From the IMG/VR virus record IMGVR_UViG_3300045999_005729, positions 1 to 35,116 of that record: a DNA stretch of 35,116 nt; one strand, given 5' to 3'. The number at the start of each line of letters is the position of its first letter. Position 1 is the first letter of the stretch. Source of the DNA: a virus. The notes beneath the pieces were generated by a model. That model worked only from the letters and a program-made list of their open reading frames with translations. It did not search any database and had not been told where the DNA came from. The position numbers and the translations under genes were made by a program. Shown in pieces: positions 920-34,086 of the stretch.

Positions 920-3900
920 GATAATGTTGTTCCGTTAATAGTGTAGTATCTTCTAGCAATATAGCTATTGAAAGATGTTGCCGTTTTTAATTGTGACGAG
1001 TGATTGCCTGTATTAGTCATGTAAAAAGCCGAAGTTGTCCCGTCAATTGGTGTTTGCGATGTCCAAAGTAGAATAGCCGTTAAATTAAAAGGCGCATAAT
1101 TTAATGGTGTCCCCGTTGGTAAAGCGTAATTGTAAAGGTTATAATATTCTCTTAAATTACAAATATGCCACCCACTCGCAAAACCGCCAAAGTTCAAAGC
1201 GTTTGCCTCTGTTATTGCAGTTGCCCAATTGATTCCATTTGCTCTTAATGTACGTTTGTAGCCTATCAAAGTTGAACCATCAACTCCGTTCCATGTTGAC
1301 CAATCTAACACAACGTTATTAGCGTACGTTTGACCACCTAAAGTGTCCGTGAATCTGTTTGTATTTCCAAAAGGATTGTTACCAGGTAGTGTAAAGAAAT
1401 TACGACCTCTTTCAGTATCTCCGTCATCGCCCGTTGCGTAACTTGTCGTTTGGTTTGTCGCTAGCAATTGACCGCCAATAGGTGTTGGACTTGTTAAATT
1501 AATTGTGTCAGTACCGTCATAAGTTCCCGAATTAGTACCGTTTAATTTTACGAATAGGTTTCGTGTGCCGTTTGACTTTACATTTCCAACACTTGAACCG
1601 TTGATGTTAATTAAGCCGTCAGGGGCTGTTAAATCATTGCTAACTCCACTTGCAAAATCAGTTGTTGAAATAGTCGCACCGCCTGAATCTTTTAAAACTA
1701 TTTCGGTGTCAGGGAAAATAATTTCAGGATCAGCCGTTGTTACTATTTGAGTAACTACTAAATCCTCATTTGTATTGTACACTAACGCTTCAACATCTCC
1801 ACCAGCTTCATTTATCGTATTCGGATAAAGTAACTGTTCTGCGTTTACATCTCCTGAAGCCGTAACACTTCCGTATTTTGTCAAATTATTAACAATCTTT
1901 TCTTGAATTTTGAAAGTTGACTTTTGACGTTCTGAAGTGTACAAAGGTGTCATTTGTGGCGATTCCGACAAAATGCAAGGTTTATCGAGTATTGTTTTAT
2001 CGAAAGAATTGTAACGATAATCAGTCGCAAAAAGTTTATTTTCGCCTACTAAATGAATGTTTACAAGTCTATTTATTAAGCAATAACCACTTGGATTTAC
2101 ATTTACTGACCAACTTGTAAGATTTTCACGCTTAATTTTGTTTTGTGAAAAATCCGAAAAAGTCAAGTTTGAAATTTCGGTATTTGGTTGGAACTCCTCA
2201 ATATCTCCGTCAAACATAATGCAGTCCACTACATTTGCGTTTGTGAAATTGATTTGTTCACGCATATTTGCATCGTTAAATACCGAACGAATCATTACTT
2301 TTGTACGTGCTAGAAACCAGTCAAACTGTTTCAAGTCAAATACTCCTAACGTTCTTTCAAATTCCAATCCAGCGACTTCAATCGAAGACTTTAAGGTATA
2401 ACAACCTTGACCGTCAGAAAGCAAAACGTCTTTCCATGGAATTGTACAATATTTAGAATCTACATCGTTAGGAAAGTCTTGTGCCGTTGGTTGAAATGAA
2501 GTTAAAACTCCAGCTTTGTAAAGTTGAAAAGTAACAGTTTCGCCAGTTGCCCAACGTGATGAAACATGATTTTTCCATGTGTCGTTGCTATTTTCATCTG
2601 CGAAAACGTCCCAAATACAATCACAACAATTACCACTATCAAGTCGTGGCTCGTTTGTCGTGTCCTTTGGTAATTTAACAGTTTTTGTTGTTACCTTATT
2701 TCTTACTTCAACATCCGAGTCATCTTTTGGTAACTCGTTATAAATTCTTGATGAAAATGAAACGTTTGACGGGTCGCTTAATTTTGTAGGGTCGAACTTG
2801 CACCATGTTTCCATAGTTGAGCCGTCAATAACAAGTTTTAACCTATCTTCTCCGTCCAAAGGTATTAAAGGACTCAACGGATTTGGCAAAGTATCGTAAA
2901 CGCTAGAAATATCCCAACGTGGATTTAATTCATTTGGCTCAACTGTCATTTGACCCCAATAATAAGCATCTCCATCAAAACTATTAACACTTGTATGTGT
3001 AGCTTTGATAATTGTAATTTCGTCAATTAACGGCTTTGTTAACGGTGTCATATCTTCTTTGAAATATTCCCACTCAGTTGAACCGCTCCAATCATCGTAA
3101 TCTTTCAAATATAATTGCCAACCGTTTTCATATTGCCCTAATTCGGTATTAATTCTAAGCGCAAAAAGTACTATCCAATCCCCGTTTTGATAATTAAACC
3201 AATCCTTATTTTGGTTTGGGAAAAAGAAAATATCAGCGTTTACTTGCTCTAACCAATATTTCCAATCAATTACGCTTGAATAAGTTACTTTGACCCCGTA
3301 ATTCCCCTCGTCATCTAAAGACGTTTCACGTTCAAAAATGATTTGTTTATTTGGATTTGTAGGACTTAGATTAATTGGTAAATTGATAGTTTGGTTAATT
3401 GGTTTTGACCCGTCAATCAAAGTAGGGAAACCACTTAAATTACAAGTTACCGATTCAAGTGTAAATCTATTATTGTTGTCGGTATTAAACACTATGCAAC
3501 CCACCTCAATTGATTCAAAGGTATTATTTCTAGGTAGTGTAAACGTTGTTACCGTTCTAAAATCGTCCTCAATGATTAAATTTCGTGGATTTAAAGTTTG
3601 ATCGTGACCAAATAACGAATAATTTTCAATGTCATATTCTCCTAAAGGAATGATTTGTTTAGTCATTGTTTGGCTATCAACATCCAACCAAACCGGCTTA
3701 ATAAAGTTATCTGTCAAACTAGGATTTTCAACTCTTATTGCAAGTCTGAAATTTCTATTAAACGATTCTTTTGATTCAATGAAACTTGTAAATTCTGCAT
3801 TTGGCGTGAATTTTCCCGTAATTGTTGCGCTCGTTCCTGATTGAGTTATCAAAATATCACTTAATCCTAATTGCGCACCGTCCGCTCTTGCGTTTCCTAA

Positions 3901-13582: not shown

Positions 13583-14839
13583 TTAGTCGATAGTCAATGC
13601 AGTAATTGCAGTTGCAACGTCTCCTTGTACCAATACTTGCGCATCGTTTGCAGAAACGAATTGTAACAACTCTTGCTCAACTAAGATAGTTCTCAAGTTG
13701 TTTGTAAAGTCGTTACCGTCTTGACCAATTTGAATATTCATTGCATCAGCAAAACGTACTTGAACAACTGATAAATCTCCACCGATAAAGTCAACCCCAC
13801 TAGGTAAACCAGTTGAAGCGATTAATGTCATTCCAGCGATTTGATTACCATTAGCCATTCTGAAAGGTGGTAATAAATACGCTCCGCTTTCGTCTTTAGA
13901 AACATCTAATTGTGCAATTACAGACGGCTCAACAAATAACGCACTTGCAGTACCGTATGCTTCCTGAACTTGCAAAGCGATTGCTCTAAATACATCATTA
14001 ATATTTGGTGCAGTCAAAGTACCAGCCATTGAACCACCCGTAAACGCAACAGCATATTCAGACAAACCAGTCAAGTTGTTACCTGTACCATCTCCACCGA
14101 ATAGTTGATCTTCAGTTACGATGTCAACTCTTTTCATCAAATTAGATTGAATATAAGGAATCAACATAGGCAAATTACGCAACATTTCAGTTGAAACTTT
14201 ACCGTAAACCCCGATTTTTTTAGACTTCATTTCACGCTCTTCATAACGAACTGAAATTTTTGTTTTGGCAGCTGCCTCGGCGATAAAAATTGGCGTTCCT
14301 TGCTCATCAAGTTCTTCAATCCAATTTACACGATTTCCAGCCATTGGCGCAACAGATACATTTGTCAAATACGCCAAAATTCTTGAACGGATTTTAGAAA
14401 TGATACCAGTGTTAGTGGTTAGGTTAATGTGATTTGCAGAACCTGAAGCATCGATTGTAGTTGCATCTGTGATATTCACAACCGCTTTAACAGTCATTTG
14501 TTTTGCTTCGCCTGAAATTACAGCATCCAATTCTTTAGAAACAGCTTCAAAAGTGCTTTTCAAAACTCCGTAAAAAGTTTTGTTTTCTTTTGTTGGTTGC
14601 TCGCTTCTTTTTTTCGCATCCAAAGAAAGTCTTTCGATTTCTTTAACGATGTCAGCATTTTTTGCAGTTAACGCTTCAACTTCTTCTTTTGTAGCGTTAT
14701 TTTTTTGCGCTTCTTCAATAGCTTTTTCGATTTCTTGTTTTCTCAAATCGGCTTCATGTGCGCTTTTTTCTGTTGTATAAGTTTCGTACTCGCTAGCCGT
14801 CATCTTATCAACTTCTTCTTGTGTTTTGTAAATAAACAT
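13583..14839 (-). CDS. Major capsid protein, HK97 fold
   Basis: This 418-residue protein shows the usual layout. Residues 1-~110 are a charged coiled-coil scaffold (delta) domain, expected to be removed by the prohead protease. The HK97-type capsid domain begins near residue 120 (HINLTTNTGIISKIRSRILA, VSVAPMAGNRVNWIEELDEQ, YGKVSTEMLRNLPMLIPYIQ). It continues with EDQLFGGDGTGNNLTGL and ends with QIGQDGNDFTNNLRTILVEQ and a closing beta strand. It would form the icosahedral head. The gene follows the protease gene by 25 bp in the same operon. Cleavage position cannot be read directly from the sequence. Confidence 0.93.
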   Translation of the reverse strand: MFIYKTQEEVDKMTASEYETYTTEKSAHEADLRKQEIEKAIEEAQKNNATKEEVEALTAKNADIVKEIERLSLDAKKRSEQPTKENKTFYGVLKSTFEAVSKELDAVISGEAKQMTVKAVVNITDATTIDASGSANHINLTTNTGIISKIRSRILAYLTNVSVAPMAGNRVNWIEELDEQGTPIFIAEAAAKTKISVRYEEREMKSKKIGVYGKVSTEMLRNLPMLIPYIQSNLMKRVDIVTEDQLFGGDGTGNNLTGLSEYAVAFTGGSMAGTLTAPNINDVFRAIALQVQEAYGTASALFVEPSVIAQLDVSKDESGAYLLPPFRMANGNQIAGMTLIASTGLPSGVDFIGGDLSVVQVRFADAMNIQIGQDGNDFTNNLRTILVEQELLQFVSANDAQVLVQGDVATAITALTID

Positions 14840-15779: not shown

Positions 15780-15787
15780 TATATTTG
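15780..15787 (+). promoter_or_regulatory. Putative plus-strand portal promoter
   Basis: TATATTTG matches the Bacteroidota -7 element exactly and lies 19 bases before the portal ATG at 15806, leaving a short leader. The -33 position holds only a weak TTTA. This is the only place where a plus-strand promoter is needed in this genome. Confidence 0.55.
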
Positions 15788-15805
15788 TATAAAAATATTT
15801 TGATT

Positions 15806-17032
15806 ATGCAAGAAAATTCGCTTTTAGGTTTGGGAAATCTTTTTAGAAATGCGTTTCGTGGAACTGATAGATTAACTAGAATGATGCCTTTATGGAATGG
15901 TTTTAATATTGGAAATTTTAACGCTCCTCAGGTTATTTGGGAAACGGTCAATAACAACGAATATCATTTGTTTTCGACAACCTCAGAAATTTACATCCCG
16001 ATAATGAAAAAAGCATCAATGTTTTCAAATGGGCGTTTCGTGGTCAAAGATTATAAAACGAATGAACCGATAGAAAACCACCCTTTGATTAAGTTGCTTG
16101 AAAAACCAAACCCGTTAATGAATCGTAACGAATGGTTAATTTCAGTATCAGTAAATCATGATATTTATGGAAACGTTTACATTTATAAGAATCAACCGTC
16201 TGTCTTATCAGAATATCCAACAACATTGGTAAACCTACCAAACGATGATATAGCGATGAAATTAAGCGGTGTTAAGTACAAACAAACCGAACTAAGCGAA
16301 ATAATCCAAAAGTATTTTTTACAGTCAAATAATGAAGAATTTGAACCTAGCGAAATAATCCATATCAAAAACTTTTCAAAGAATGGTATTAAAGGAGAAT
16401 CAATTTTAAATTCACTTGAAATGCCTATTACAAACGCTAGAGGTGCGCATGGTTTTAATAACGTCAATATCACAAAACGTGGTGCAATTGGTGTTATTTC
16501 TCCAAAGGTAAACCCTAACGGAATGACTGCATTAGTTCCTAACGATAGAATGGAAATCGAGAAAGATTTTAAAGACGAAAACGGAATATTTGATAATCAA
16601 AGTGCAATACGCATCGTAAACAAACCAATTGATTATACTCAGCTTTCACTTGGTATTAAGGATCAAATGATTTTTGAAACTATTTCTTTGACAATGCAAC
16701 GAGTAATTGATGCAATTGGATTGAATGATAACCTATTCAGTAAAGATAAAGGCGCAACGTTTAACAATGCAAACACTTATCTTAAATCAGCTTATCAAGA
16801 CTGTATTATTCCATTTGCTGAAAAGTTTTGCTTTGCTTTAAATGATTCTTTAGGATTGACTGATAAAGGTATTTATGTTGAATTGGATTATTCATTTTTA
16901 CCATGTATGCAAGTTGACCAAAAAGCCGAAGCGGAAACTGCACAAACTAAAGCAAATGCAATTCAAGGACTTGTTTCTATTGGTTATTCACTTACTGAAG
17001 CTGAGTCGTTGCTTGGTATTTCATCGAAGTAA
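15806..17032 (+). CDS. Portal protein (HK97 family), the only plus-strand gene
   Basis: This 408-residue protein, read from ATG 15806 (a TTG at 15785 is rejected because it lies in the -7 element), forms the dodecameric portal at the capsid vertex. Recognisable stretches are the phage-portal core NHPLIKLLEKPNPLMNRNEW, then HDIYGNVYIY, EIIHIKNFSKNGIKGESILN and a C-terminal QKAEAETAQTKANAIQGLVS stretch that resembles the portal clip-to-wing helix and tail. In related phages the portal gene follows the large terminase on the same strand. Here it is inverted and its last 49 bp run antisense to the terminase C-terminus. Its own divergent promoter region lies at 15728-15805. Confidence 0.9.
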   Translation: MQENSLLGLGNLFRNAFRGTDRLTRMMPLWNGFNIGNFNAPQVIWETVNNNEYHLFSTTSEIYIPIMKKASMFSNGRFVVKDYKTNEPIENHPLIKLLEKPNPLMNRNEWLISVSVNHDIYGNVYIYKNQPSVLSEYPTTLVNLPNDDIAMKLSGVKYKQTELSEIIQKYFLQSNNEEFEPSEIIHIKNFSKNGIKGESILNSLEMPITNARGAHGFNNVNITKRGAIGVISPKVNPNGMTALVPNDRMEIEKDFKDENGIFDNQSAIRIVNKPIDYTQLSLGIKDQMIFETISLTMQRVIDAIGLNDNLFSKDKGATFNNANTYLKSAYQDCIIPFAEKFCFALNDSLGLTDKGIYVELDYSFLPCMQVDQKAEAETAQTKANAIQGLVSIGYSLTEAESLLGISSK

Positions 17033-22958: not shown

Positions 22959-23372
22959 TTATAAATATTCTTTAAATTTCTCAATTTCGCTATCAATTGC
23001 AAACTTATTTTGTATGTATTCGTCTGGCGTTGGTATGTAACAGCCTTGCATACTTGCAAACGTTCTAATCCATTCTATAAATTCAGTCATTTGTTTAGTG
23101 TCTAAATCCCTTGTGCGTTTCGTTTTGGTGTTTTCCCCATCAAATGTGTGCATAAAATGGCAAGCTCGTTTCAAAAGTTGCTTAGCATCATCTAAATGGT
23201 TACCGCTTTCAATTGCGAATAAAGTTATGCAAACGTGTAAATAGCTATTTTGCGATAGTGTACGAGTCTTTTTCTTTTCCGTTAACTCAATTATACACTT
23301 CTTACTCAATAATGCGTCTAAACGGCTTAAAAGCTTATTTACTTCTAATTCTTTTGATGTGTCGTAAATCAT
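22959..23372 (-). CDS. NinB-like recombination protein
   Basis: This 137-residue protein carries the pattern KKTRTLSQNSYLHVCITLFA, then a Lys/Arg-rich stretch and LDTKQMTEFIEWIRTFASMQ followed by GCYIPTPDEY. The RTLSQNSYLH motif and the ending (EFIEWI...G..IPTP) are typical of NinB-like single-stranded-DNA-binding recombination proteins. It overlaps NinG by 4 bp, which supports a shared role in phage recombination. Function is inferred from family resemblance, which is good but not exact. Confidence 0.65.
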   Translation of the reverse strand: MIYDTSKELEVNKLLSRLDALLSKKCIIELTEKKKTRTLSQNSYLHVCITLFAIESGNHLDDAKQLLKRACHFMHTFDGENTKTKRTRDLDTKQMTEFIEWIRTFASMQGCYIPTPDEYIQNKFAIDSEIEKFKEYL

Positions 23373-23878
23373 TTCAATAAGTTTTTATATTTTTCAATCA
23401 TTTCTTTAATTTCAGGAATAGAGTATTTTCTGCTTTCGTGCGCTCGTTTCTCTAAGGCATCAATTCTTTCTTGTCCTATGCGAAGCGTTAACCATCTTTT
23501 GTATTCGTGAATATTGCCACCTCGAAATTGGTTACAATGTACGCACTGTGATGCACAATTTTCTTCATCAAATCTAACGCTTGGATAATTACCAACTGAA
23601 AAAAAATGTCCACAGTCACGCTTTCCGCTTAAAGTTCCGCACGAAATACAAGGCAACCCCTCGTCACGTTTACGAATCCATTTGTTAAAAACAACTTGCA
23701 AAGCGTTTGAATAGTCGCTCAATGTCATTAACTCCTTTTTCATTTCGGCTTTCTTTTTTTTCCATTGTTTCGCTTTCGCTTCGCTAACAAATATTTCAAC
23801 ACATTCGGGTCTTACCATGCAGTATTTCTGCAGAAATGTTTTTGGAGTAAATTGGTCTTTACAGTTTTTGCATCTCAT
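23369..23878 (-). CDS. ninG: NinG (Rap) recombination endonuclease
   Basis: This 169-residue protein matches NinG: an N-terminal zinc ribbon CKNCKDQFTPK (C3, C6) with further cysteines in YCMVRPEC, a basic helix (AKQWKKKKAEMKK), LSDYSNALQVVFNKWIRKRD, then an HNH-like region GLPCISCGTLSGKRDCGHFF with FDEENCASQCVHCNQFRGGN. In lambda, NinG/Rap is a structure-specific nuclease cutting recombination branch points. It follows the coiled-coil gene by a 4-bp overlap and overlaps the NinB-like gene by 4 bp. All metal-binding cysteines and histidines look intact. Confidence 0.88.
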   Translation of the reverse strand: MRCKNCKDQFTPKTFLQKYCMVRPECVEIFVSEAKAKQWKKKKAEMKKELMTLSDYSNALQVVFNKWIRKRDEGLPCISCGTLSGKRDCGHFFSVGNYPSVRFDEENCASQCVHCNQFRGGNIHEYKRWLTLRIGQERIDALEKRAHESRKYSIPEIKEMIEKYKNLLK

Positions 23879-24168
23879 AGTAATTCCGTTAATTCTTTGT
23901 TTTTTTGTTCTAACTCTAAAATCTTTGCATCCCTCATTTGAATATTTAACATCAAATTTCCCGAATGACTTTTAAACAACTTCAATTCACTACGTAATTC
24001 GTCAAAAATAACTAAACTTTGAACGAGTTTTGTTTTGGCGGTTTTCATTGGCTCGATGTAATCCGTTCTATTTGGATTATTAGCTATCATGTCATCGATT
24101 GAGTTTTGTAGTTGTGTTGTTACCTCAATTAAATTATAGCGTGCTTGTACTTCGTTTAAAATATCCAT
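23875..24168 (-). CDS. Coiled-coil protein between helicase and NinG genes
   Basis: This 97-residue protein is helical throughout, with long charged heptad-like stretches (KTAKTKLVQSLVIFDELRSE; ILELEQKNKELTELL). It has no cysteines or membrane segment. It overlaps NinG by 4 bp. It may be a small oligomerising partner of the replication or recombination proteins; no family was recognised. Confidence 0.55.
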   Translation of the reverse strand: MDILNEVQARYNLIEVTTQLQNSIDDMIANNPNRTDYIEPMKTAKTKLVQSLVIFDELRSELKLFKSHSGNLMLNIQMRDAKILELEQKNKELTELL

Positions 24169-24170
24169 AG

Positions 24171-24398
24171 TTAAATGTTTTTAATTTCCTCTTTTACTTT
24201 ATTCCAATACCCAATATAACCTAAATCGCTTTTTGCTTCTGTATGTTTTATTGATTGAATAATCTCATCAATTGCAATTAAAACGCATTGTTTTATGATT
24301 TCTTTTCTAACAATTCTATTTATAACGTTTGATATTTGGTACAATCCTTTTCTATTATACTTGCTAAATAACTCTTGTGCTTTTTCTTTTGGACTCAT
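24171..24398 (-). CDS. Small conserved protein of Bacteroidota phages
   Basis: This 75-residue protein has a pattern often seen near replication genes in Bacteroidota phages and prophages: MSPKEKAQELFSKYN, IIKQCVLIAIDEIIQSIKH and YIGYWNKVKEEIKNI. It is mostly helical and acidic-basic mixed. The family has no known function. It lies 12 bases downstream of the helicase gene in the same operon. Confidence 0.65.
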   Translation of the reverse strand: MSPKEKAQELFSKYNRKGLYQISNVINRIVRKEIIKQCVLIAIDEIIQSIKHTEAKSDLGYIGYWNKVKEEIKNI

Positions 24399-24410
24399 AA
24401 TTTCTATTTT

Positions 24411-25421
24411 TTAAAATGGGACATCGTCTGGTTTATTCTTTTCGTACTCCGTTTCAAAAGTGCTTTTTTCAGGTGTTAAATTCACGTTTGCAAATGCTTG
24501 TTGAATTTTTACCTTGCTTTCTTTCTCAACAACTTTTTGCATTTCCATTTGTTGCTGTATTGGTATCATTTTAGGTCGTTTAATTGGGTCGATTCCGTTT
24601 ATTTTAAAGCCTAAACCAAAATTATAATCTAGTAATATTGGAACTTCTAAACGTGTGCATTTTCCGCCGGTGTCCGTATCTTTAATTTTTACAACCTCTA
24701 GCATTGTGTACATCCACATATCCGGATGTTGTGGCAACCGGTGGATAACTATAAAATCATCCGCTTTATTTGGAAACGCTTTCCCTCCCTCAATATCAGA
24801 TTTCAAAGGTGGCATAACATGACCGGCGAATTGGTGTCCTTTTGGAAAAATAGCGTTTCTTCTTCCTGAAGCCGAACTAGGATGCGCATTTATGTACATT
24901 GTTTTACCGGTCTTTGTGAACATTTTGAATTTATTTAGCATTTCGTAATTTGCTGAATAAGTCATTTCGGTATTCAATGCGTTAAATGGATCAATAAGAT
25001 AATTATCCGTATTACTTTGGTTAAATACATCCATCATTTGTTCCGGAGTATAACGCCGGCTATTATCTACAAACTTGAAATAATACTCAACTTTCATTTC
25101 AGCTCGCCGGATTTCTTTATACGATAAATCTTTAAAGTTTTTACCGGTGTAAATCTGAACTAAATCACGCATCACTTTTCCGGTATAGTTTTCATCCATG
25201 AATAAAGTTGATTTCAAATCGTTGTTTATTGCGTTGGCTAGAAAATACCATTCAATGAAATACGTTTTTCCTACGTTGTCATGTCCTAAGATTAAATTTA
25301 ATTGAGAATCTTTCCAAACTAAATATTCATCCATTGCGCAACCTAAACCTTTTCCAACCGGTATAAGACCATTTTTATAGTCCTCTAGGTATTTTGTACT
25401 GTGTCCGTCTTTAAGTATCAT
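24411..25421 (-). CDS. RecA-fold replicative helicase/ATPase with SSB-like C-terminal tip
   Basis: This 336-residue ATPase has Walker A GHDNVGKT (residues 46-53), a Walker B-like YLIDPFNAL (141-149), a sensor-like NAHPSS (178-183) and a C-terminal charged region. It resembles the RecA/DnaB-type phage helicases (single-domain) of Bacteroidota phages, which unwind DNA at the fork. The last residues are KPDDVPF, like the acidic tip of SSB proteins that recruits partners. It overlaps the initiator gene by 4 bp. Ten of the fourteen CCGG sites of the dense patch are inside this gene. The helicase call is good; loader or recombinase (Sak4-like) remains possible. Confidence 0.8.
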   Translation of the reverse strand: MILKDGHSTKYLEDYKNGLIPVGKGLGCAMDEYLVWKDSQLNLILGHDNVGKTYFIEWYFLANAINNDLKSTLFMDENYTGKVMRDLVQIYTGKNFKDLSYKEIRRAEMKVEYYFKFVDNSRRYTPEQMMDVFNQSNTDNYLIDPFNALNTEMTYSANYEMLNKFKMFTKTGKTMYINAHPSSASGRRNAIFPKGHQFAGHVMPPLKSDIEGGKAFPNKADDFIVIHRLPQHPDMWMYTMLEVVKIKDTDTGGKCTRLEVPILLDYNFGLGFKINGIDPIKRPKMIPIQQQMEMQKVVEKESKVKIQQAFANVNLTPEKSTFETEYEKNKPDDVPF

Positions 25422-26164
25422 AAGCCCGCAAGTTTTTTGTAGGATAATCCGGTTTGTTTATGGTAATGTACAACATCAGCCGTTAATGTAGCACCGTTTG
25501 GCATTACGTCTCCAACTTGAAAATCTTGTTCCCAACCGTCACTTTGAATTATACTATGTTTCTTTTTTTCTTTACTAAGCCAATTTTTTGAAGTAAGATA
25601 AAGCGATTTGTATTTCTTATTGTCTTTGAAATTTTCAATTGAATCCAAAACCATATCAATAGTTTTTTTATCGTATTCTTTTTCTAACTTTTCAAATTCA
25701 GAAATAGACAAAGACAAATGGGCAAAAGACCTGTAAACTTGTATATTTGTATTATTGTATATTTGTTTATCTATACTATCAGTGCTTTGATATGTGCTTT
25801 GTACTGTGCTTTCACTTTGCTTTGATGTGTGCTTTGTAAGTGCTTTGTTAAGTGCTTTATCATTTGCTTTGTTATTTTCTTTCAAAGCAATTATGTTACT
25901 AGAGTATTGATTTTTTGAATATTCGATTACATTTATAAATCCATATTCAACTAAATCGTCAAATGTTTTTTTGAAAACAGAATAGCTTTTTATACCGGTA
26001 GCTTCTAAAACCATTGAAGTAGGAAATCCAAATTTCTGTTTCCATCCTAATCTATTGCAATGTTCAATAGCAAAAGAATAAATAGCAACATGATTTGGTT
26101 TAATTTTTTCCGGATTATCAAATGCATAATCCCAAAAGTTTCTGTATAGTTTGTAAATATCCAT
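25418..26164 (-). CDS. Replication initiator-like protein with winged helix; iterons inside the gene
   Basis: This 248-residue protein has an N-terminal winged-helix domain (residues ~1-92: KLYRNFWDYAFDNPEKIKPN, HVAIYSFAIEHCNRLGWKQK, PTSMVLEATGIKSYSVFKKT, LVEYGFINVIEYSKNQY), a low-complexity linker (residues 98-128: Lys/Ala/Gln/Ser/Thr) and a C-terminal region with a helical repeat-like part. The linker is encoded by eight copies of CAAAGCAC-type repeats. The gene lies directly upstream of the helicase, as initiators and helicase loaders often do (lambda O/P, DnaD-type organisers). The likely role is binding the origin within its own gene and loading the helicase. Assignment to initiator is by domain, repeats and neighbour; a transcription regulator is the alternative. 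Confidence 0.7.
   Translation of the reverse strand: MDIYKLYRNFWDYAFDNPEKIKPNHVAIYSFAIEHCNRLGWKQKFGFPTSMVLEATGIKSYSVFKKTFDDLVEYGFINVIEYSKNQYSSNIIALKENNKANDKALNKALTKHTSKQSESTVQSTYQSTDSIDKQIYNNTNIQVYRSFAHLSLSISEFEKLEKEYDKKTIDMVLDSIENFKDNKKYKSLYLTSKNWLSKEKKKHSIIQSDGWEQDFQVGDVMPNGATLTADVVHYHKQTGLSYKKLAGL
25739..25780 (+). other. AT-rich stretch beside iterons, candidate unwinding element
   Basis: This 42-bp AT-rich stretch contains TTGTATATTTG at 25739-25749 and again at 25755-25765 and directly abuts the iteron array. AT-rich direct repeats beside initiator binding sites are the usual site of strand opening. It lies inside the initiator gene. The role is inferred from position and composition. 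Confidence 0.5.
25782..25871 (-). repeat. Iteron array, eight copies of CAAAGCAC-type repeats
   Basis: On the plus strand GTGCTTTG or one-base variants start at 25782, 25794, 25806, 25817, 25829, 25840, 25852 and 25864, spaced 12, 12, 11, 12, 11, 12 and 12 bp, about one helical turn. A ninth, degenerate copy may lie at 25876. The two 11-bp steps shift the reading frame, so the same DNA motif encodes K-A, K-H/K-Q and Q-S-T in turn. The motif is therefore kept at the DNA level, as expected for initiator binding sites. Confidence 0.85.
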
Positions 26165-26166
26165 AA

Positions 26167-26379
26167 CTAATCAATTAAAGCGATTTGTTTACGAATTTCT
26201 CTACTTAACTTAATTGCAGTTTCCTTATCTAAACAAATATGTTGTTCATAAAAAGAATGATTAGAATCTTCATCCTTAATATTAACATAAATTTCATTAT
26301 CTTCATTACAGTAAATTTCTAATGTTTGAGTTTCTGTGTTACTGTTTTCTGTTCCGTAGAATTTTAATTTTATTGCCAT
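26167..26379 (-). CDS. Small beta-rich protein at the head of the replication module
   Basis: The start is taken at ATG 26379 (opening MAIKLKFYGTENSNTETQTL); an upstream TTG lies in the terminator-like region. The 70-residue protein alternates strands (IYCNEDNEIYVNIKDED) and ends in a helix (KETAIKLSREIRKQIALID). There is no known family. It is the first gene after the structured leader at 26424-26515 and is followed by the initiator gene at 2 bases, so it probably is controlled together with replication genes. Confidence 0.6.
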   Translation of the reverse strand: MAIKLKFYGTENSNTETQTLEIYCNEDNEIYVNIKDEDSNHSFYEQHICLDKETAIKLSREIRKQIALID

Positions 26380-26423
26380 AATCTGTGAATGTTTTATAAA
26401 AACAAACAAAAGTTAATTAAATT

Positions 26424-26515
26424 AAAAAGCCCTTATAAATCCGTTGGGGCTTCACATCCAATTTCATTACAAGGGCAATAACATCTTTCAGTTCTATAGT
26501 GTGAAGCCGAACCGT
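26424..26515 (-). ncRNA. Structured leader RNA / attenuator or small RNA before the replication module
   Basis: On the minus strand a promoter-like element is followed by about 90 nt with three alternative pairings. P1 is GGCTTCACA (26508-26500) with TGTGAAGCC (26456-26448), nine perfect pairs. The terminator is AAGCCC (26452-26447) with GGGCTT (26432-26427) followed by T residues. A third is GCCCTT in the P1 loop (26476-26471) with AAGGGC (26434-26429). P1 and the terminator share bases and exclude each other, while P1 and the third pairing can coexist as a pseudoknot. This is the arrangement of a transcription attenuator, or of a small RNA ending at its terminator. Confidence 0.65.
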
Positions 26516-26542: not shown

Positions 26543-26830
26543 TCACGGTATAATTACTTTCATTTCTTCCGCTACTTTATCAAACTCGTTCACGCAGTCA
26601 ATGTAGTTTTGACTTTGCTCAGGCATTTTCGCTGTTAAATCGTACAACTCAATTTCATGCTTTGCCGTGAACTTTTGAACGTACCGGACAAAGTCGTTCC
26701 ATTCTTTCTTTTTAAGCTGCTTAAACTTGTTGCCCTCGCCAGTTACTTTATCTAGGGTGTGAATTGCGCTTTGTAGTTGCATCGTTGCCATTACTATGTG
26801 CGCTAAGTCGTCTTTTTGTTGGATTGTCAT
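26543..26830 (-). CDS. Hypothetical helical protein, 95 residues
   Basis: This soluble helical protein opens MTIQQKDDLAHIVMATMQLQ and has alternating charged and hydrophobic residues typical of a small four-helix or coiled-coil protein (LKKKEWNDFVRYVQKFTAKH). It has one cysteine and no signal. It is the last gene before the structured leader of the replication module and follows the clamp-motif gene by one base. Not recognised. Confidence 0.55.
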   Translation of the reverse strand: MTIQQKDDLAHIVMATMQLQSAIHTLDKVTGEGNKFKQLKKKEWNDFVRYVQKFTAKHEIELYDLTAKMPEQSQNYIDCVNEFDKVAEEMKVIIP

Positions 26831-27038: not shown

Positions 27039-27376
27039 AAACCTTTTATTAAAACCATTTTAAAACCTACCTTTTGGTTGCCATGCTCACTCCAATTATT
27101 CATCACTTGAACGGGTTTTATTTTTGAGCAAATTATCCACATCCAATTGTCCTTGAAATAATCGTTGTTATCTTTAAAATCGTTTGCGGTGTTTTCCAAA
27201 TGTCGAATGCTTGAAATATTGCACCTGAAAACTTTTAATAAATCTCGCTTGCTATAACCTTGCTTTCTCAAGTGAACGAATACAAGTTTCTTCATTGTTA
27301 CTAGGTAACTGAATCTGTACTGCTTGTGGTGTCGTGGATCAAAATACTCGATGTATTTATCTAGTGATTCTTTCAT
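27035..27376 (-). CDS. Helix-turn-helix protein
   Basis: This 113-residue protein contains a region like a DNA-binding helix-turn-helix, VFVHLRKQGYSKRDLLKVFR followed by CNISSIRHLENTANDF (residues ~33-67), with an invariant-type Gly-Tyr turn. The flanks are Trp-rich. The pattern resembles DnaA C-terminal-like DNA-binding domains in phage proteins and could regulate or mark the origin. It overlaps both neighbours by 4 bp. The HTH reading is moderate; the role is unknown. Confidence 0.55.
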   Translation of the reverse strand: MKESLDKYIEYFDPRHHKQYRFSYLVTMKKLVFVHLRKQGYSKRDLLKVFRCNISSIRHLENTANDFKDNNDYFKDNWMWIICSKIKPVQVMNNWSEHGNQKVGFKMVLIKGL

Positions 27377-33537: not shown

Positions 33538-34086
33538 TTAAAATTCGTCAACTATAACCATTGACCAAATCTTTTGAGCTTCTAATAAATTAATTACTTT
33601 TAAATACGTTGGTATGTCATTAAGTACAATGCAACCCTCACTCCAACCCCCAATATTTTTCTTTACTATTTTACGGTTAATATCATGGTCCGCTGGATGA
33701 AAGTTGAAACCTCTAATATCTGTCTTTATTTCAGTTGTTGGATTCGTTTTTCCATCGTTTGTAAAATCTCTTTGATAAGGGAAACCAACTCTTTGAAGTC
33801 CCGCTTTAACTTTACCTTTGTGTTTACCGATTATCCAGGCGCCATAATTCCAAACATTCGCACAAACAACTCCAGTACCTTTGTTTCCTTTGTTAGTTGT
33901 ACACGAAGTTACCAGGACGAACTTTGATCCACGAAACAAATAACATTTATCATCAAATTTATCCGTTTCATCTTCATTACTTCGCACCGCTAAAATCCAA
34001 TAAGTTTCGGGAATACCTTTAAAACCTTTAAGAGTTTTTACCTTATTGAGTAACTGAATATCTGTATAGTTTTTTACGTTTGTCAT
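33538..34086 (-). CDS. L,D-transpeptidase (YkuD)-like putative endolysin
   Basis: This 182-residue protein has the hallmark of the YkuD-like fold near its C-terminus: RGFNFHPADHD (H130, H134), IGGWSEGCIVLNDI (S149-E150-G151-C152) and a closing YLKVINLLEA helix. The His plus SxGC pattern marks the catalytic His and Cys of L,D-transpeptidases, which act on peptidoglycan peptides; relatives in phages may serve as lysins. A signal peptide is absent, so it would need a holin. It is the last gene of the lysis/late block and is followed by a terminator. The fold call is good; lytic activity is inferred. Confidence 0.65.
   Translation of the reverse strand: MTNVKNYTDIQLLNKVKTLKGFKGIPETYWILAVRSNEDETDKFDDKCYLFRGSKFVLVTSCTTNKGNKGTGVVCANVWNYGAWIIGKHKGKVKAGLQRVGFPYQRDFTNDGKTNPTTEIKTDIRGFNFHPADHDINRKIVKKNIGGWSEGCIVLNDIPTYLKVINLLEAQKIWSMVIVDEF

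Follow-up and report, generated by a model that had tools for sequence, protein, structure and literature searches.

Several unrelated bacterial viruses, including phages already in culture, almost exclude the tetranucleotide CCGG from their genomes yet concentrate it in the gene for their replicative helicase, a pattern that appears to be undescribed and that is open to laboratory testing. We identified it in IMG/VR record IMGVR_UViG_3300045999_005729, a tailed phage record analysed over its full length of 35,116 nucleotides (the window), in which 14 of 18 CCGG sites lie within 1.45 kb of the adjoining initiator and helicase genes. The pattern is well supported, whereas the mechanism is not yet known; we favor, at roughly even confidence, a maintained, gene-confined mark read by an unidentified CCGG-specific methylase or binding factor.

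Distribution of CCGG in the window

An exact count had been proposed in advance as the check on this observation, with the lack of an excess as the outcome that would have overturned it, and the count confirms the observation in a form stronger than originally stated. The original prediction gave 14 CCGG in the patch and about three elsewhere; the latter number is four (positions 3693, 12795, 17700, and 26684). The order-0 expectation is 1.0 in the patch and 23.9 in the rest of the window, and GC content is the same inside and outside (0.326 and 0.330). CCAG and CTGG, described in the prediction as almost missing from the patch, number 0 there (4.3 expected) and 70 in the rest. In 20,000 random placements of 18 sites, no 1.45-kb window held more than 8. 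Shuffling each gene's own synonymous codons, with the protein fixed, gives 2.4 CCGG in the helicase gene (maximum 7 in 5,000 shuffles; observed 11) and 0.6 in the initiator gene (observed 3). The deficit elsewhere is real but smaller once codons are fixed, with 4 sites against about 13 expected in coding sequence.

In the helicase gene the sites occupy nearly every position that the protein allows. The five Thr-Gly pairs of the helicase and the two of the initiator are all encoded as ACC-GG, while only 1 of 27 other Thr codons is ACC, and CCAG and CTGG are the silent alternatives at the same places. Codon or GC bias as the cause was rejected, because all five ACC, all three CGG, and all three CCG codons of the helicase gene lie in CCGG contexts, and because the sites of the window fall in all three codon phases. 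Lack of avoidance alone was likewise rejected, since CCGG exceeds expectation. Silent displacement through avoidance of CCAG/CTGG and CAGG/CCTG raises the expectation for the patch from 2.0 to 8.8 but not to 14, and CAGG is not absent from the patch. Very-short-patch repair was considered because CTGG/CCAG are missing, but many aligned sites differ from CCGG by changes other than C-to-T or G-to-A.

Features of the window discussed in the text, with the evidence for each
Coordinates	Strand	Feature	Evidence
13583..14839	-	Capsid gene	
15785..17032	+	Portal-protein ORF, opposite in strand to terminase and capsid genes	Collinear in siblings L002, L003, and L005
16984..18420	-	Terminase gene; its end is overlapped by the portal ORF by 49 bases	
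23369..23878	-	NinG recombination nuclease, left border of the swapped module	PF05766, E 7e-40; 90-92% identical in siblings
23880..26513	-	Swapped replication module; no nucleotide match in siblings L016, L017, and L019, which carry a DnaD/O-like loader module with 0 CCGG	blastn breakpoints at 23879 (NinG start codon) and at 26514 (L019) or 27169-27188 (L016, L017); families of the sibling module
24411..25421	-	Replicative helicase, 336 aa, helicase half only; 11 CCGG in codons 21-251, none in the variable tail	PHROG 18375 and 239 DNA primase/helicase (E 9e-19, 2e-10); Walker A GHDNVGKT with invariant core residues; no Pfam hit
24667..26113	.	CCGG array, 14 sites (24667, 24722, 24738, 24823, 24907, 25043, 25056, 25107, 25144, 25180, 25358, 25449, 25995, 26110)	Exact count; codon tests; best-scoring segment, 41.6 nats, when compared with a CCGG-rich phage (runs to 26688)
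25418..26164	-	Replication initiator / replisome organizer, 248 aa; CCGG at codons 18, 56, and 238	Weak PHROG 13246 replisome organizer match (E 9e-5); N-terminal half 64-77% identical in L014/L015; C-terminal segment conserved next to related helicases
26543..26830	-	Small gene just right of the module, with the lone extra CCGG at 26684	The site is absent from the 92% identical sibling copy
33538..34086	-	Possible cell-wall enzyme	Weak Tlde1-domain match (PF10908, E 0.001, below cut-off)

The window helicase belongs to the PHROG 239/18375 primase-helicase family by homology to the helicase domain, by its Walker A motif, and by its conserved core. It aligns only to the helicase half of that family and lacks the primase (zinc finger, Toprim) half, while Toprim is present in the array-bearing loci L160, L181, and L225 (L and G numbers denote the phage loci and contigs fetched for comparison), so we class it as a helicase-only relative rather than a bifunctional primase-helicase. 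NinG, NinB, terminase, portal, capsid, and tape-measure genes follow, and the gene order resembles that of cultured Baltic Flavobacterium phages such as hattifnatt9-1. Given its collinearity in siblings, the inverted portal gene seems conserved.

No near-nucleotide matches were found among deposited phages, but sibling contigs exist with 96-99% identical terminase (L002, L004, L006-L008) or about 90% identical NinG (L016-L019). The unrelated, CCGG-free module in the same slot of L016, L017, and L019 indicates that a module swap did happen, with its left border at the NinG start codon. The initiators of L016 (8084-8818) and L019 (8081-8818) share an identical C-terminal half (124 aa) but have different N-terminal halves, as the window's initiator does relative to L014/L015 in its other half, consistent with domain swapping of the likely origin-binding part. 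CGCG occurs twice in the whole window but 22, 26, and 13 times in L016, L017, and L019 (contigs of 10-20 kb), hinting at a recent change of host or restriction pressure between close relatives. In 80 relatives of the helicase fetched without regard to CCGG, the gene has 0 CCGG in most and at most 4, and 0 in all relatives above 60% identity; at the 11 sites of the window helicase, the aligned codons of 14 relatives are almost never CCGG. The array is therefore special to the window's lineage.

Recurrence and specificity of the array

A scan with the initiator alignment fetched phages in which CCGG is again confined to the gene after the initiator. L160 has 17 of 17 CCGG in a 602-aa primase-helicase gene, with none in the initiator before it or in the gene after it. 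L168 has 11 of 11 in 15.7 kb, L176 has 14 of 15 in 10.9 kb, L181 (genome G020) has 15 of 29 in 53.6 kb plus 2 in the initiator, and L224 (G021) and L225 have a weaker cluster. All are PHROG 239 proteins but divergent from that of the window (22-24% identity for L168 and L176). Among cultured Flavobacterium phages, tooticki6-1 (37 kb) has 14 of 15 in the end of the initiator plus the primase/helicase gene, lillamy9-1 has 14 of 17, and hattifnatt9-1 has 12 of 18. The remaining 3 and 6 sites of lillamy9-1 and hattifnatt9-1 all lie in one gene annotated DNA methyltransferase (L249 3163-3819 and L259 2380-3036, with 6 and 3 sites), whose relatives include DNA cytosine methyltransferases; in hattifnatt this gene (gp08) has deviant codon usage.

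Over all tetramers and all fetched loci, only CCGG forms such islands repeatedly, in 9 of 79 testable loci, against at most 2 of about 180 for any other motif. The most comparable non-CCGG cluster apart from tandem repeats is CAGG/CCTG in L132 (29-1529), with 20 of 23 in 1.5 kb. Over 2,723 genes and 12 palindromes, seven gene-motif pairs passed P<1e-6 with a more than five-fold density ratio, and all seven are CCGG in replicative helicase genes. The loci were fetched around this region, so other genes are sampled unevenly, and five of the seven belong to one helicase clade, so that the number of independent lineages is three, or four with the weaker L224 family. In array phages the helicase total is 115 CCGG against 17 expected, while 267 other genes have 29 against 125 (0.23 of expectation). 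In 118 phages without an array the helicase has 60 against 62.2 expected from its own genome, so the trait is all-or-none and not a general property of helicases.

Three tests favor long residence of the array genes. They avoid GATC, GGCC, and CGCG as their own genomes do, two CTAG in tooticki being an exception. Codon usage for amino acids that cannot form CCGG silently is ordinary in six genomes (ranks 20/23, the window's, 13/25, 8/24, 10/24, 27/41, and 27/30). In the L160/muminphage helicase clade, with 77-79% nucleotide identity across the deep split, codons in CCGG are retained 74/111 against 4/42 for the same rare codons outside CCGG, although these counts come from few sequences that share ancestry and are not independent, and at two columns CCGG persists although the amino acid differs. 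One test leans the other way: CCWG/CWGG sites that cannot turn into CCGG silently are somewhat low in the arrays, 8 against 17.0 expected, and 0 against 4.4 in the window plus L160, as an imported signature would predict; in the CCGG-rich phage contig L157 they are 0 against 21.3.

Possible origins and functions

The interpretation offered in the original prediction is partly supported. Of its three options, a recently acquired cassette agrees with the absence of the module from close siblings, but import alone is a weak account given the recurrence in the same gene family of unrelated phages, the ordinary codon usage, and the shared site avoidances. Avoidance of a restriction enzyme elsewhere is supported for the window and its siblings but cannot explain a more than six-fold excess in one gene. 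The pattern fits best with sites kept near the replication genes for a methylation-sensitive control, although neither methylation, nor an origin at this place, nor a reading factor was shown, and the array follows gene limits rather than a non-coding origin.

We consider the patch a gene-confined CCGG array that selection builds and keeps inside the coding sequence of the phage's own replicative helicase and, more thinly, the adjoining initiator, while CCGG is removed from the rest of the genome. The analysis itself demonstrates the array, its tie to CCGG and to this gene family, its recurrence in unrelated phages, and the preferential retention of sites within one helicase clade. That the array is a cis-acting mark read at the DNA level is our inference: a host or phage cytosine methylase, or a CCGG-binding protein, would act on it so that expression or replication start at the initiator-helicase locus responds to methylation or binding, in the way clustered GATC sites mark oriC and dnaA in E. 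coli, and keeping CCGG out elsewhere would keep the mark unique and also avoid CCGG-cutting enzymes. No methylase gene is common to the array phages, so a host factor is more likely than a phage one; as the host repertoire is unknown, this comparison does not settle whether a cognate methylase and a reader of hemimethylation exist. Against this reading, the array follows gene limits and has no fixed spacing or longer consensus, unlike a compact origin, the same slot holds a module without CCGG in CCGG-poor siblings, and a second, unrelated gene also carries CCGG in two cultured phages. Somewhat more tentatively, the array could represent an undescribed kind of phage control element, a short palindrome silently written into nearly every permissible site of one gene and erased from the rest of the genome so that a CCGG-specific factor recognizes that gene, which has arisen or been kept in several unrelated phage lineages.

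An imported signature is possible but less likely. In this case the helicase gene would have come recently from phages that are CCGG-rich throughout and poor in CCWG/CWGG, and would not yet have lost that signature in a CCGG-avoiding recipient. Such an import looked likely before the recurrence was found. The window's module is absent from siblings, with a sharp break at the NinG start codon, and phages with a genome-wide signature of this kind and a distant relative of this helicase exist. L157 has 79 CCGG in 19.3 kb (10.7 expected; 7.4-fold), no CCAG/CTGG, and 3 CAGG/CCTG; silent displacement raises its expectation to 44.5, against 73 observed in coding sequence. L157 and L139 both have CCGG at 6-7 times expectation at about 30% GC, no CATG or CTAG, and almost no CCAG/CTGG or CAGG/CCTG. 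Other contigs (L109, L131, L144, L148, L152, and L156) wholly lack one or more tetramers over 12-14 kb (for example CAGG/CCTG 0 of 39-62, CCAG/CTGG 0 of 62, GATC 0 of 44), suggesting complete avoidance of several 4-base sites at once. Convertible as well as non-convertible CCWG/CWGG are low in the window and L160, and gp08 of hattifnatt combines CCGG with deviant codon usage. However, independent imports would each have to involve the same gene family and no other among the genes tested, subject to the uneven sampling noted above, and the window's cassette is not compositionally alien apart from CCGG. L157 lacks CATG and CTAG, which the window patch has. No donor with a close helicase was found: the helicases of L157 and L139 are only about 31% identical, an outcome that leaves the matter of a donor undecided, and relatives of the window helicase at 46-69% identity have 0-4 CCGG, most of them 0.

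More doubtful is an RNA-level signal, in which CCGG in the helicase messenger is the target of a sequence-specific RNase or RNA-binding regulator that shuts off this early gene and is kept out of other messengers, as T4 RegB does with GGAG. This would explain the gene limits equally well, and CCGG is absent from nearly all other genes, late ones included, but no such nuclease was identified, RNA was not measured, and strand bias is uninformative because CCGG is palindromic. A classical origin, with CCGG-bearing iterons inside the coding sequence bound by the initiator, is unlikely. The array lies next to the initiator gene, which itself carries some sites, but gaps are irregular, without a period or a common longer repeat, flanks vary, the sites spread over 1.5-1.8 kb wherever codons allow, and initiators with 77-81% identical DNA-binding halves (L015, L173) have no array.

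Relation to known systems

In the GATC cluster at E. coli oriC and dnaA, which is under Dam/SeqA control, a palindromic methylation-type tetramer is likewise about ten times denser than expected beside replication-initiation genes. Here the sites are CCGG, lie inside a helicase reading frame, follow gene limits, and are nearly absent elsewhere; no methylase or SeqA-like reader is known, and the origin of the phage was not mapped. As in phage restriction-site avoidance, CCGG, GATC, GGCC, and CGCG are depleted in the rest of the genome, but avoidance does not produce a more than six-fold excess in one gene. Modular exchange of replication cassettes, by which the initiator-helicase module replaces a DnaD/O-like loader module, explains the borders but not the recurrence of CCGG in this gene family. 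The lambda ori inside gene O, which is bound by lambda O, lies within a coding sequence, as do the candidate cis-acting replication sites here, next to the initiator, but the array has no iterons, no fixed spacing, and a far longer extent. In Helicobacter pylori, CCGG is a rare case of an over-represented restriction-type site (PMC4687349, PMC10423294), without an accepted explanation in PMC4687349; the excess there is genome-wide and mild (ratio about 1.4-1.5), whereas here it is gene-confined and about six-fold. We found no report of gene-confined CCGG clusters in phages in the open-access literature.

The muminphages and their Flavobacterium hosts LMO6 and LMO9 make the pattern directly testable, as plating on these hosts depends on the last host in a way that has been linked to methylation and methylase differences, in a study that does not mention CCGG (PMC7077304). 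Short-motif biases in phages are usually read as restriction avoidance applied evenly to a genome. A motif excluded everywhere but concentrated in one gene family of unrelated phages implies either a gene-addressed epigenetic or nuclease signal on replication, or repeated capture of one gene from a special donor pool, and either would change how such biases are read.
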